Origin: Thermosulfurimonas sp. F29
GTDB taxonomy: Bacteria; Desulfobacterota; Thermodesulfobacteria; Thermodesulfobacteriales; Thermodesulfobacteriaceae
NCBI RefSeq assembly: GCF_019688735.1
Contig: NZ_JAIFYA010000003.1
Location: 372,001-436,000, forward strand
Direction of reading: 5' to 3'
DNA length: 64,000 nucleotides
Shown here piece after piece: positions 1,037 through 10,578 of this stretch (position 1 is its first letter; every line of letters starts with the position of its first letter). The notes under the pieces are model-generated. The model saw only the letters and a list, made by a program, of their open reading frames with translations. It searched no databases and was not told the origin of the DNA. Position numbers and translations under genes: made by a program.

Positions 1037-1157
1037 CTGATCCCCCAAAAGCTTTTTTAAATTATATCTCTTCCAATTTCGAGGATAGCCTTTTTCCGTT
1101 CCTTGTCAATTCACTAGATTTTGTTAGGTTTTGAAGGAAAAAAGCGGGGGTAGGAAT

Positions 1158-2198
1158 GTGTCCGAGATAGATCGAATAAGAAAACAGGTATTAAGGACCC
1201 TGAAGCTCGGTCCCAAATCTTTCTGGGAACTTATCAACTATCAGGATGGCCACATCGCCGTCTTCTTTGAGGTCGTAAACCGGCTCCTGGAAGAGGGGCT
1301 GATAGGTTACAGGGACTACAGATTTCACCTTCGAAAGGAGGTCCCCTACCGGCCCTTTGCGGATACCGTGTGTCGCACCTGCGGTCTGGGGGTGGAACTC
1401 AGGGGTTTCTGGGAGGACCTTTACCGGCGGTTCATGGAGGTTACCCGGGATCGCCCCCTTCCCACCAGCGATTACGACCAGGGTTTCGTGCGCCCGGTGG
1501 ACACCGTGCGCCGGGTGGCCTACATCTACCAGCGCGGCGACCTGGAGGAGGCCGAGATCTTCATCCTGGGCGACGACGACCTCCTCTCCGTGGCCATGGG
1601 ACTCACCGGGATGCCCCGTCGCATCGTGGTGGTGGAGATAGACCGGCGCATCAACCGCTTCATTCAGGACTTCGCCCGCCGGGAAAACCTCCCCTGGATC
1701 GAGGTTTACGACTACAATGTGATTGAGGCCCTTCCCGAAGGCCTGAAACGGGCCTTTGATGTCTTCGTAACGGACCCGGTGGAGACGAAAAAGGGGCTCA
1801 AGCTCTTCGTGGGGAGGTGTCTGGAGGCCCTCAAGGGACCCGGGGCGGTGGGCTACATGGGCTTCACCCACCGGGAGGCCTCCCTGCGCAAGTGGTTCGA
1901 GTTCGAAAAGTTCATCCTTTCCGCCGGGCTGGTGATAACCGACATCCTGCGGGACTTCGCCATCTATCCGGAAAGGGAGAATCAGTGGGAGCACTTTTAC
2001 GATACCTACGAGATCATGAAAAAGCTGGAGCTACCCCTTCCGGAGGTGGACTGGTACAAGAGTTCCTTCGTGCGGTTTGAGGTGGTGGAGGGGCCGCGGG
2101 TGCCGGAATTCGAGCCCCCAAAGGACCTGCGGGAGCTTTACTTCGACGAAGAATCCTGGGCCACCCCGCTTCCCTCCTACCTCAAGGAGAATTCCTGA
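1158..2198 (+). CDS. bpsA: branched-chain polyamine synthase, N4-bis(aminopropyl)spermidine synthase
   Basis: It transfers aminopropyl groups from decarboxylated S-adenosylmethionine to the central nitrogen of spermidine, making branched polyamines known from hyperthermophilic archaea and thermophilic bacteria. A winged-helix-like N-terminal region (about residues 1-65) precedes a Rossmann-like aminopropyltransferase core with the family motifs DQGFVRP, LGDDDLLS (the GDDD motif), VVEIDRR and TDPVE. About 346 residues is the usual length. GTG at 1158 is chosen because GGGGGTAGGA lies just upstream; an in-frame TTG at 1131 would add nine residues. It converges on hisD with a 17-bp overlap. Its dcAdoMet donor must come from an AdoMet decarboxylase, which the speD-like gene at 9320 seems unable to be. 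Confidence 0.88.
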   Translation: MSEIDRIRKQVLRTLKLGPKSFWELINYQDGHIAVFFEVVNRLLEEGLIGYRDYRFHLRKEVPYRPFADTVCRTCGLGVELRGFWEDLYRRFMEVTRDRPLPTSDYDQGFVRPVDTVRRVAYIYQRGDLEEAEIFILGDDDLLSVAMGLTGMPRRIVVVEIDRRINRFIQDFARRENLPWIEVYDYNVIEALPEGLKRAFDVFVTDPVETKKGLKLFVGRCLEALKGPGAVGYMGFTHREASLRKWFEFEKFILSAGLVITDILRDFAIYPERENQWEHFYDTYEIMKKLELPLPEVDWYKSSFVRFEVVEGPRVPEFEPPKDLRELYFDEESWATPLPSYLKENS

Positions 2199-9188: not shown

Positions 9189-9265
9189 CGGGACGTAGCG
9201 CAGCCTGGCAGCGCACCCGCTTGGGGTGTGGGGGGTCGGCGGTTCAAATCCGCCCGTCCCGACCA
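9189..9265 (+). tRNA. tRNA-Pro (anticodon GGG)
   Basis: A complete 77-nt cloverleaf can be folded: acceptor CGGGACG/CGTCCCG (7 bp), D stem GCGC/GCGC, anticodon stem CCCGC/GTGGG with one G-U pair, anticodon loop TTGGGGT reading GGG at positions 34-36, T stem GGCGG/CCGCC with TTCAAAT loop, discriminator A, and an encoded CCA end. A T5 run follows directly but without a GC-rich hairpin, so read-through into the speD-like gene 55 nt downstream is possible. Confidence 0.97.
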
Positions 9266-9290: not shown

Positions 9291-9306
9291 CCAGGCCCTG
9301 GCCTGG
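9291..9306 (+). repeat. short inverted repeat before the speD-like gene
   Basis: CCAGGCC-CT-GGCCTGG lies between the tRNA and the GGGGGGAGG ribosome-binding site of the speD-like gene. It could fold as a small hairpin in a tRNA-speD transcript. No T run follows, so it is not a terminator for the plus strand. Confidence 0.4.
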
Positions 9307-9319
9307 GGGGAGGTGTGCG

Positions 9320-9751
9320 ATGAGGGCGACCCCGGTGTGCCAGATTGACCGGCTGGATGTCATTCCCGCCCAGGGGGGCAGGAAAGAGAGTAGTTTTCCG
9401 GTAACCACGCATCTTCTGGTGGAGATGTGGCAGGCGCCCTTTCAGGTGCTGGCCCGGGCCGACGAGGTGGAAAGGGCCCTGCGCTTTTCCGGAAACGGAC
9501 GCGGAGAAAGGGGCGACATCGTTTCCTACCAGTTTCAGCCCTACGGGGTCTCGGCCAAGGCCACCTTCGGGGATGCCCACATCTTTATCCACACCTGGCC
9601 GGAAAACGGCTACGCCGCGGTGGACATCTTCGCCGCCACGGAGGAAGGGGCTTACGCCATCCTGGATCGCATGCAGAAGGCCTTCCGCCCCAGTTATGTC
9701 CATGTGGTAGAGGTCAAGAGGGGCAATCTCTTTTCCGAGGGGGAGACTTGA
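9320..9751 (+). CDS. AdoMet decarboxylase (SpeD)-like protein lacking the pyruvoyl serine
   Basis: The 143-residue protein aligns with class I bacterial AdoMet decarboxylase through PYGVS and IHTWPENGYAAVDIF. Against the Thermotoga maritima enzyme, Ser55 and His68 are kept (Ser78, His91), but the self-cleaving Ser63, which becomes the pyruvoyl group, is Ala86 (sequence FGDAH where ESH is usual), and catalytic Cys83 is Ala106. The codon for Ala86 is plainly GCC. Without that serine the proenzyme cannot be processed in the known way, so it is probably inactive as a decarboxylase, perhaps a regulatory partner like the trypanosome AdoMetDC prozyme. ATG follows GGGGGGAGG. It overlaps speE by 4 nt. 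It also has about 25 extra N-terminal residues. Confidence 0.85.
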   Translation: MRATPVCQIDRLDVIPAQGGRKESSFPVTTHLLVEMWQAPFQVLARADEVERALRFSGNGRGERGDIVSYQFQPYGVSAKATFGDAHIFIHTWPENGYAAVDIFAATEEGAYAILDRMQKAFRPSYVHVVEVKRGNLFSEGET

Positions 9752-10578
9752 CTCGCTACTGGTGGCGCGAATCCCTGGGCCGGGATTACGGCCACGCCTA
9801 TCGGGTGGGCCTGATTTACGAGGAACGCACCCCGGCCGGCCAGCACCTCCAGGTCTTCCACAATCCCTTCTGGGGGCGATTCGTCGTCCTGGACGGGATC
9901 GTGCAATTCACCGAGCGGGACGAGTTCGTTTATCACGAGACCATCGTTTACACGCCGGCCGCCGCCCTCGCCGGGGCTCCGGAAACGATCCTGATCGTCG
10001 GAGGGGGGGACGGCGGGGTTCTGCGTGAGGTTCAGAAACTCGAGGGAGTGAAGCGCATCCTCCAGGCCGAGCTGGATCTTTCCGTGTTCGAGGTGTGTCA
10101 GAAGTACCTCCGGGATCTCTCCGGGGATTACGAGGATCCCCGGGTGGAATTCATGGTGCGGGACGGGCTAGCCGCGGTTTCCGAACTCCCCGGGGAGAGT
10201 TTCGATCTGGTCATCGTGGATTGCACCGATCCGGTGGGCCCGGCTCGGACCCTTTACACCGAGGAATTCTACCGGGGGGTGCTGCGGATCCTCAAGCCCG
10301 AGGGGCTTTTCATTCAGCAGGCCAGTCTTCCGGGCTTCTTTCCGGACATTCTCCGCCGGGCCTGGCGGCTTGCCTCCGGGGTCTTTCCGCGCCTTGCGGT
10401 GCTGCGGGCCATGGTGCCCTGCTACGGTGACGAGATCGCTTTTCTGATGGGGGGACGCTCCCCGGAACTCGACTTCGAACCCAAACGCCGCTTCGTGGGG
10501 CGTCACTACAGTCCGGAGATGCACCGGGCCTCCTTTGCCCTTCCCGAGTGGTGGCGCCGGGAGATCCTGTATCTCTAA
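9748..10578 (+). CDS. speE: spermidine synthase / aminopropyltransferase
   Basis: It transfers the aminopropyl group of decarboxylated AdoMet to putrescine or a related amine. The N-terminal beta domain has GRFVVLDGIVQFTERDEFVYHE, and the Rossmann core has GGGDGGVLREV (dcAdoMet loop), AELD where EID is usual, VRDG and VDCTDPVGPA (gatekeeping loop). Its 276 residues match the family. The start is TTG, whose last bases overlap the speD-like stop (TTGA), which indicates translational coupling. It converges on sbcC with a 4-bp overlap. With bpsA at 1158 it gives a route to branched polyamines. Substrate (putrescine versus agmatine) cannot be fixed from motifs. Confidence 0.92.
   Translation: MTRYWWRESLGRDYGHAYRVGLIYEERTPAGQHLQVFHNPFWGRFVVLDGIVQFTERDEFVYHETIVYTPAAALAGAPETILIVGGGDGGVLREVQKLEGVKRILQAELDLSVFEVCQKYLRDLSGDYEDPRVEFMVRDGLAAVSELPGESFDLVIVDCTDPVGPARTLYTEEFYRGVLRILKPEGLFIQQASLPGFFPDILRRAWRLASGVFPRLAVLRAMVPCYGDEIAFLMGGRSPELDFEPKRRFVGRHYSPEMHRASFALPEWWRREILYL

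Follow-up and report, generated by a model that had tools for sequence, protein, structure and literature searches.

Why should a heat-loving bacterium keep, directly before an aminopropyltransferase gene, a protein with the fold of AdoMet decarboxylase (AdoMetDC, SpeD) from which two catalytic residues are gone, and where does the dcAdoMet consumed by its polyamine enzymes come from? These questions are raised by a gene of Thermosulfurimonas sp. F29 at positions 9320..9751 (plus strand) of the window, i.e., of the whole 64,000-nucleotide stretch of DNA that was analysed. The gene starts with ATG, codes for 143 amino acids and was recognised as encoding a dead SpeD-fold protein from PF02675, alignments and an AlphaFold model with Foldseek. 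A good ribosome-binding site with ggaggtg, ggggggaggtgtgcg (9305..9316, plus strand), was read in the sequence before the ATG, as an earlier sequence-only reading of this DNA had stated. Directly upstream lies a tRNA-Pro (GGG) gene (9189..9265, plus strand), which precedes the dead speD copies throughout the order. On the other side, the polyamine aminopropyltransferase gene speE (9748..10578, plus strand; TIGR00417 216 bits, PRK00811 246 bits, GGGDGG motif) has its TTG start codon at 9748, which gives a 4-nt overlap with the dead-speD stop codon (ACTTGA). Another gene whose product consumes dcAdoMet, bpsA for branched-chain polyamine synthase, is located at 1131..2198 (plus strand), and its PF01861 match reaches 264 bits (G000:C3:373416-374159).

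The window protein matches Pfam AdoMet_dc PF02675 with E 1.2e-22 and 80.7 bits and scores 71.1 against NCBIfam TIGR03330, under the equivalog cut-off of 75.65. Its AlphaFold model (pLDDT 83) has the half-sandwich fold of AdoMetDC, and the top Foldseek matches are the bacterial AdoMetDCs 2iii, 1vr7, 1tlu and 1tmi. The top PDB match of the protein is 1tmi, the non-processing S63A mutant of Thermotoga maritima SpeD, and A86 of the window protein is aligned with the mutated S63. With class 1b SpeD, represented by T. maritima TM0655 (PDB 1tlu/1tmi/1vr7; 32–33% identity in the structure alignment), it shares the fold, the length, the substrate-binding residues and the place before speE. Kept are F49 (F72 in the window protein), P51 (P74), S55 (S78), H68 (H91), W70 (W93), P71 (P94) and E72 (E95). 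The sequence-only reading had claimed the loss of the pyruvoyl serine and the catalytic cysteine, and this is borne out: S63 has become A86 (codon GCC, 9575–9577) and C83, the catalytic and processing cysteine, has become A106 (also GCC, 9635–9637), while E62 is replaced by D85. Thus, the set S63, H68 and C83, conserved in the SpeDA and SpeDC proteins (PMC10407285), is incomplete by S63 and C83. Judged by its residues, the window protein falls outside AdoMetDC by function, because two defining features were tested and both are missing.

The loss is not confined to the source genome. This genome, 40 relatives, GTDB contigs and 297 genomes from the phylum were searched, and 48 related dead-type loci came to light, distributed over the order and at least seven further GTDB families. 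Within the order, almost every member has the window type together with an intact type. The scans also place the dead type in about ten 'Deltaproteobacteria' MAGs and in eleven genomes that belong to seven other GTDB families. The dead-type sequences form one clade (SH-aLRT 99) inside class 1b SpeD, apart from the intact type, in a quick tree of 136 columns where a long stem leads to the clade and its exact sister is not fixed. Between closely related pairs dN/dS is 0.02–0.16, and the dead-type protein is under purifying selection. The gene speE follows dead speD directly, overlapping it or lying no more than 48 nt from the aligned end, in all loci of the order and the MAGs that were checked, and this coupling is near-invariant across 39–94% identity; in three (L152–L154) of the dead-type loci L144–L154 the same query gave no speE match. 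The coupling to speE noted earlier from the sequence therefore holds for nearly all copies checked, and the purifying selection, the single clade and the near-invariant coupling agree with the proposal of selection for a role other than stand-alone decarboxylase. A pseudogene or a sequencing error at the Ala86 codon, which the absence of two catalytic residues might suggest, is scarcely credible, since 48 intact related loci with the same loss exclude both error and chance, and the dN/dS values and the clade support of 99% SH-aLRT point the same way.

Alignment of the 48 loci shows which part of the active site was given up. The position of S63 is occupied by A in 27 loci, S in 7, V in 4, I in 3, L in 3, T in 2 and M in 2, so that alanine is merely the commonest letter and 41 of 48 sequences have no serine. 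Cysteine at position 83 was found in none of them (E, R, G, S, A, K, D and other residues occur), and position 62 is unconstrained. Unlike class 1b SpeD, the dead type is thus mostly devoid of the pyruvoyl serine, and it lacks the catalytic cysteine and the ESH motif, while the class 1b motif YECD is replaced by W-x-x-P-F. On the other hand, F49, P51, G53, V54, S55, I67, H68, T69, W70, P71 and E72 are invariant in 48/48 loci; the earlier observation that the surroundings of the active site are kept is well founded. Invariant columns make up 22 of the 113 filled ones, and the probability that the seven substrate-side residues (49, 51, 55, 68, 70, 71 and 72) are all among them by chance is 4.4e-6. 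In intact class 1b SpeDs, nearly all sequences keep S63, E62 and C83 together with F49, P51, S55, H68, W70, P71 and E72. New invariants specific to the dead clade are W at Y13, P-F at D16-R17, A at D21 and Q at R48. The gene sits before speE, where an AdoMetDC normally lies, and serine persists in 7/48 loci, so one may ask if the dead protein might decarboxylate AdoMet by itself through unusual chemistry, with neither pyruvoyl nor cysteine. This is very improbable: positions 63, 62 and 83 are free to vary, and among the newly invariant residues of the 48-locus alignment there is no nucleophile, lysine or cofactor-binding residue.

This division can be compared with the human enzyme. Eukaryotic AdoMetDC corresponds to two fused bacterial half-enzymes (PMC5201418), and AdoMet is contacted in the human protein by F223, E247 and E67 (PMC3686867). 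According to the PDB sequences, E67, S68 and C82 belong to its N-terminal half, and F223-x-P225-x-G-x-S229 ... H243-x-x-P-E247 to its C-terminal half. The F-6-S and H-4-E spacings are identical in the human C-terminal half, T. maritima SpeD and the window clade, and the window protein therefore corresponds to that half of the human AdoMetDC. In the window model, residues 86–93 form one strand on which A86 and H91 are five residues apart, too distant for one site, so that the site would be built across chains. From the human half-assignments and the strand rise in the model, we infer that each class 1b site joins E62, S63 and C83 of one chain with F49, P51, S55, H68 and E72 of the facing chain. 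If so, the dead protein, as far as its residues indicate, has lost the pyruvoyl/cysteine set and kept the facing-chain set, like the human C-terminal half.

Such a half-site would call for a partner, and the source genome offers a candidate. Three PF02675 proteins are encoded there: besides the window protein, there is an intact one (L001) next to agmatinase and, on a different contig, a weak one. The search for a second speD with an intact ESH, advised in the sequence-only reading, was successful: the source genome has another SpeD that retains ESH and Cys, and so has each dead-type genome in the sample from the phylum. The agmatinase-linked type adjoins agmatinase in 58/58 loci examined and keeps E62, S63, H64, H68 and C83 in 48/48 loci, as well as S55 and mostly E72. 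It departs from class 1b SpeD in having Tyr for F49, A or G at P51 (no conserved Pro), an extended loop preceding S55 and Phe in place of W70, the register at F49/P51 being alignment-dependent (hhalign places a 7-residue insert there, and L001 itself has a Pro nearby); the strands 57–61 and 70–77 of the L001 model support the equivalence of Y62 and F49. An XRE-cupin-like regulator gene is found near the pair of this speD and speB outside the order (L174, L182, L183, L185, L191).

With 87.4 bits against TIGR03330, L001 is above the cut-off and so is called AdoMetDC. At the same time, it has features of SpeDA, the pyruvoyl L-arginine decarboxylases derived from SpeD (PMC10407285), which resemble this partner and not the window protein: S63, H68 and C83 are conserved, speB is a neighbour, the gene often occurs without speE, and there is no conservation of the Pro that, as read from the text of PMC10407285, is probably diagnostic of AdoMetDC. 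A SpeD homolog without SpeE is a hallmark of neofunctionalised SpeD, and SpeDA enzymes had no AdoMetDC activity in complementation tests (PMC10407285); the L001 subfamily was not found among the enzymes assayed there. Six genomes with the agmatinase-linked type (three of family f20 and three of f41) have no TIGR00417 match, and in other genomes carrying it, from f9, f53 and f92, such matches are weak and inside long proteins. The exception is G293, where this type is the only SpeD detected and a divergent aminopropyltransferase is present. Because of the agmatinase neighbour, the frequent absence of speE, the lack of a detected SpeA and the altered adenine-binding loop, the agmatinase-linked type is, as predicted from its context, most probably a SpeD-derived arginine decarboxylase (ADC).

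No SpeA was found over the cut-off in 44 genomes. In the order, PF01862 (PvlArgDC) gave no match, and PF01276 (OKR_DC) and TIGR01273 gave none over the cut-off; a PLP-dependent or another pyruvoyl arginine decarboxylase was sought there by family profile searches with no clear candidate. PF02784 in the order detects LysA and, in some genomes, a patchy homolog of about 450 amino acids, a second PLP decarboxylase. A PLP decarboxylase gene (PF02784 and PF00278; L127:3540-5345, G000:C2) located by that of a membrane/M23-peptidase-like protein is also patchy in the order. For the class 2 AdoMetDC, PF01536 gave no match in the genomes searched, the control genomes being silent too. The third PF02675 protein of the source genome (G000:C4) was rejected as a general AdoMetDC, having Ser at H68 and occurring only in this genome among the relatives. 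Its gene (L003/L072, about 92.9–95.3 kb of a 145 kb contig) encodes a divergent SpeD-like protein with Ser and Cys kept and is situated near genes of a divergent spermidine-synthase-like protein and pilin-like ones. If the agmatinase-linked type is an ADC, it follows that no conventional AdoMetDC is detected in dead-type genomes.

Consumers of dcAdoMet are nevertheless there in these genomes. Nearly all of them keep aminopropyltransferases, usually two (G182 has no TIGR00417 match), and BpsA is present in the order. Aminopropyl polyamines are made by Thermodesulfobacterium: in Escherichia coli, two aminopropyltransferases of Thermodesulfobacterium thermophilum proved active with dcAdoMet, and norspermine is prominent in this species (PMC11107197). 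In the phylum sample, the agmatinase-linked type is also carried by every dead-type genome (12 of the order and 11 others). Counted by families, this type accompanies the degenerate speE-side SpeD in 12/12 cases versus 5/23 for the intact one (Fisher 7e-6, from a hand tally of families that ignores shared ancestry).

In our opinion, there is about an even chance that the dead protein is the non-catalytic, substrate-binding subunit of a heteromeric AdoMetDC, whose pyruvoyl group belongs to the agmatinase-linked SpeD. This explanation starts from the observed pattern of loss and retention, the purifying selection, the synteny, the co-occurrence and the lack of another detectable AdoMetDC or SpeA; judging from the alignments, each of the two proteins has suffered losses in a different half of a shared dimer site, and these losses complement one another. 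The agmatinase-linked protein would cleave itself, and its homodimer would decarboxylate arginine. In a heterodimer, the pyruvoyl and the cysteine would come from it and the AdoMet-binding half from the window protein, so that the pyruvoyl would face an AdoMet-type pocket and dcAdoMet would be formed for the co-translated SpeE, the second aminopropyltransferase and BpsA. Coupling to speE would keep the synthesis of the dead subunit in step with that of a dcAdoMet consumer. The trans site, the ADC activity of the partner, and the formation and activity of the heterodimer are predicted parts of this scheme. Several facts count against it: the two genes sit in different operons, serine is retained at position 63 in seven dead-type members, L001 exceeds the TIGR03330 cut-off and its ADC activity is read from context, some members of the order have the second PLP decarboxylase, and G293 has its divergent aminopropyltransferase. 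It may also be that an AdoMetDC family still unknown makes dcAdoMet in dead-type genomes. A further step, that one pyruvoyl protein serves two substrates by partner swap, taking arginine as a homodimer and AdoMet as a heterodimer with dead SpeD, is put forward more tentatively.

Other explanations have to be weighed against the heteromeric enzyme. The agmatinase-linked protein could be an AdoMetDC, or a bifunctional enzyme, switched by the dead protein without any contribution of site residues. The trypanosome prozyme, which gives about 1000-fold activation (PMC5201418), is a precedent for such allosteric regulation, the two proteins strictly co-occur and the partner is above the TIGR03330 cut-off, but the residues conserved in the dead protein constitute a substrate-binding half-site, more than a surface, and the partner is also found in speE-less genomes, where AdoMetDC activity would be of no evident use. 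We regard purely allosteric action as rather unlikely. The sequence-only reading had likewise suggested a regulatory partner of a true SpeD, as the prozyme is. A prozyme-like role is indeed plausible, whereas the likelier partner is the agmatinase-linked, SpeD-derived ADC, no conventional AdoMetDC having been detected, and the dead protein probably acts by completing a shared site and not by allostery of the trypanosome type. It is more doubtful that the agmatinase-linked type alone decarboxylates both Arg and AdoMet, the dead protein having an unrelated role, e.g., as a metabolite sensor. The full pyruvoyl machinery is kept in this type along with S55, H68 and mostly E72, and its homodimer could therefore decarboxylate AdoMet alone; nevertheless, the published SpeDA enzymes lacked AdoMetDC activity in complementation (PMC10407285), and the key residues are alike in speE-less and dead-type genomes, which makes this explanation quite improbable.

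The near-invariant coupling with speE and the invariance of the adenosine-binding F49 and E72 may also be understood if a dead homodimer binds AdoMet, dcAdoMet or MTA and channels substrate to SpeE or relieves its inhibition. Natural SpeD-SpeE fusions are known elsewhere (PMC11107197), and in one ORF of our sample, L242 (G183), SpeD continues in frame into a spermidine-synthase-like domain. The gene order of canonical speD-speE pairs is no different, and so the synteny of the dead gene may be simply inherited; besides, an accessory of SpeE leaves unexplained both the source of dcAdoMet and the occurrence of the dead family only together with the agmatinase-linked SpeD. We therefore consider it unlikely. 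The related earlier proposal of a dcAdoMet binder serving SpeE and BpsA loses weight because BpsA is missing in 11 dead-type genomes outside the order and the missing AdoMetDC would be left unexplained.

Several known systems invite comparison. Like the trypanosomatid prozyme, the window protein is a dead AdoMetDC paralog accompanied by an intact homolog in one genome, but the prozyme, described as restricted to trypanosomatids (PMC5201418), is an inactive duplicate of the class 2 enzyme with its two domains, whereas the window protein is a single class 1b domain of 143 amino acids from a bacterial clade. The prozyme is allosteric at an edge-to-edge interface (PMC5201418), and dead SpeD is proposed to complete a site face to face. 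Thus, the latter is not a prozyme by descent and may work somewhat like one by another mechanism. The C-terminal half of eukaryotic class 2 AdoMetDC also keeps F-x-P-x-G-x-S ... H-x-x-P-E without catalytic Ser and Cys, but it is fused to the catalytic half, while dead SpeD is free-standing and similarity outside the motif is very low. The SpeD fusions of Victivallis vadensis and Desulfobacter (PMC10407285) likewise contain a bacterial SpeD domain without active-site residues tied to active AdoMetDC, and dead SpeD may function in a similar way as an independent subunit. In those fusions, the degraded domain follows a bona fide SpeD at its C-terminal end, in contrast to the separate, speE-coupled window gene, for which no bona fide SpeD was found. 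No description of a free-standing dead bacterial SpeD subunit was met in the literature searched, which included few subscription papers.

If the heteromeric AdoMetDC exists, the missing AdoMet decarboxylation step would be filled for Thermodesulfobacteria and relatives, and there would be a bacterial pseudoenzyme that alters substrate preference by contributing one half of the active site. Such an enzyme would also represent, in unfused form and in living organisms, the passage from the bacterial homodimer to the asymmetric two-half eukaryotic AdoMetDC. With partner swap, the order and several other families would have no self-sufficient AdoMetDC, both decarboxylations of spermidine synthesis would be carried out by one pyruvoyl protein, and the pair would correspond to the two-half eukaryotic enzyme, but split into free-standing proteins. 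Annotation pipelines may label both proteins 'AdoMetDC', and perhaps neither is one alone.

Other SpeD-like proteins with altered active sites were also encountered. In a SpeD clade of families f40 and f73 (L211, L213–L217), H64 is replaced by Phe or Tyr (ESF/ESY) and in some members C83 by Ser or Thr; speE adjoins L211 and L214–L216, and the clade, which may represent a partly degenerate stage, co-occurs with the agmatinase-linked SpeD. Finally, a dead SpeD-like domain with Gly at S63 and Ala at H68 (L055, genome G040) bears a lipoprotein-like signal sequence and is apparently exported.
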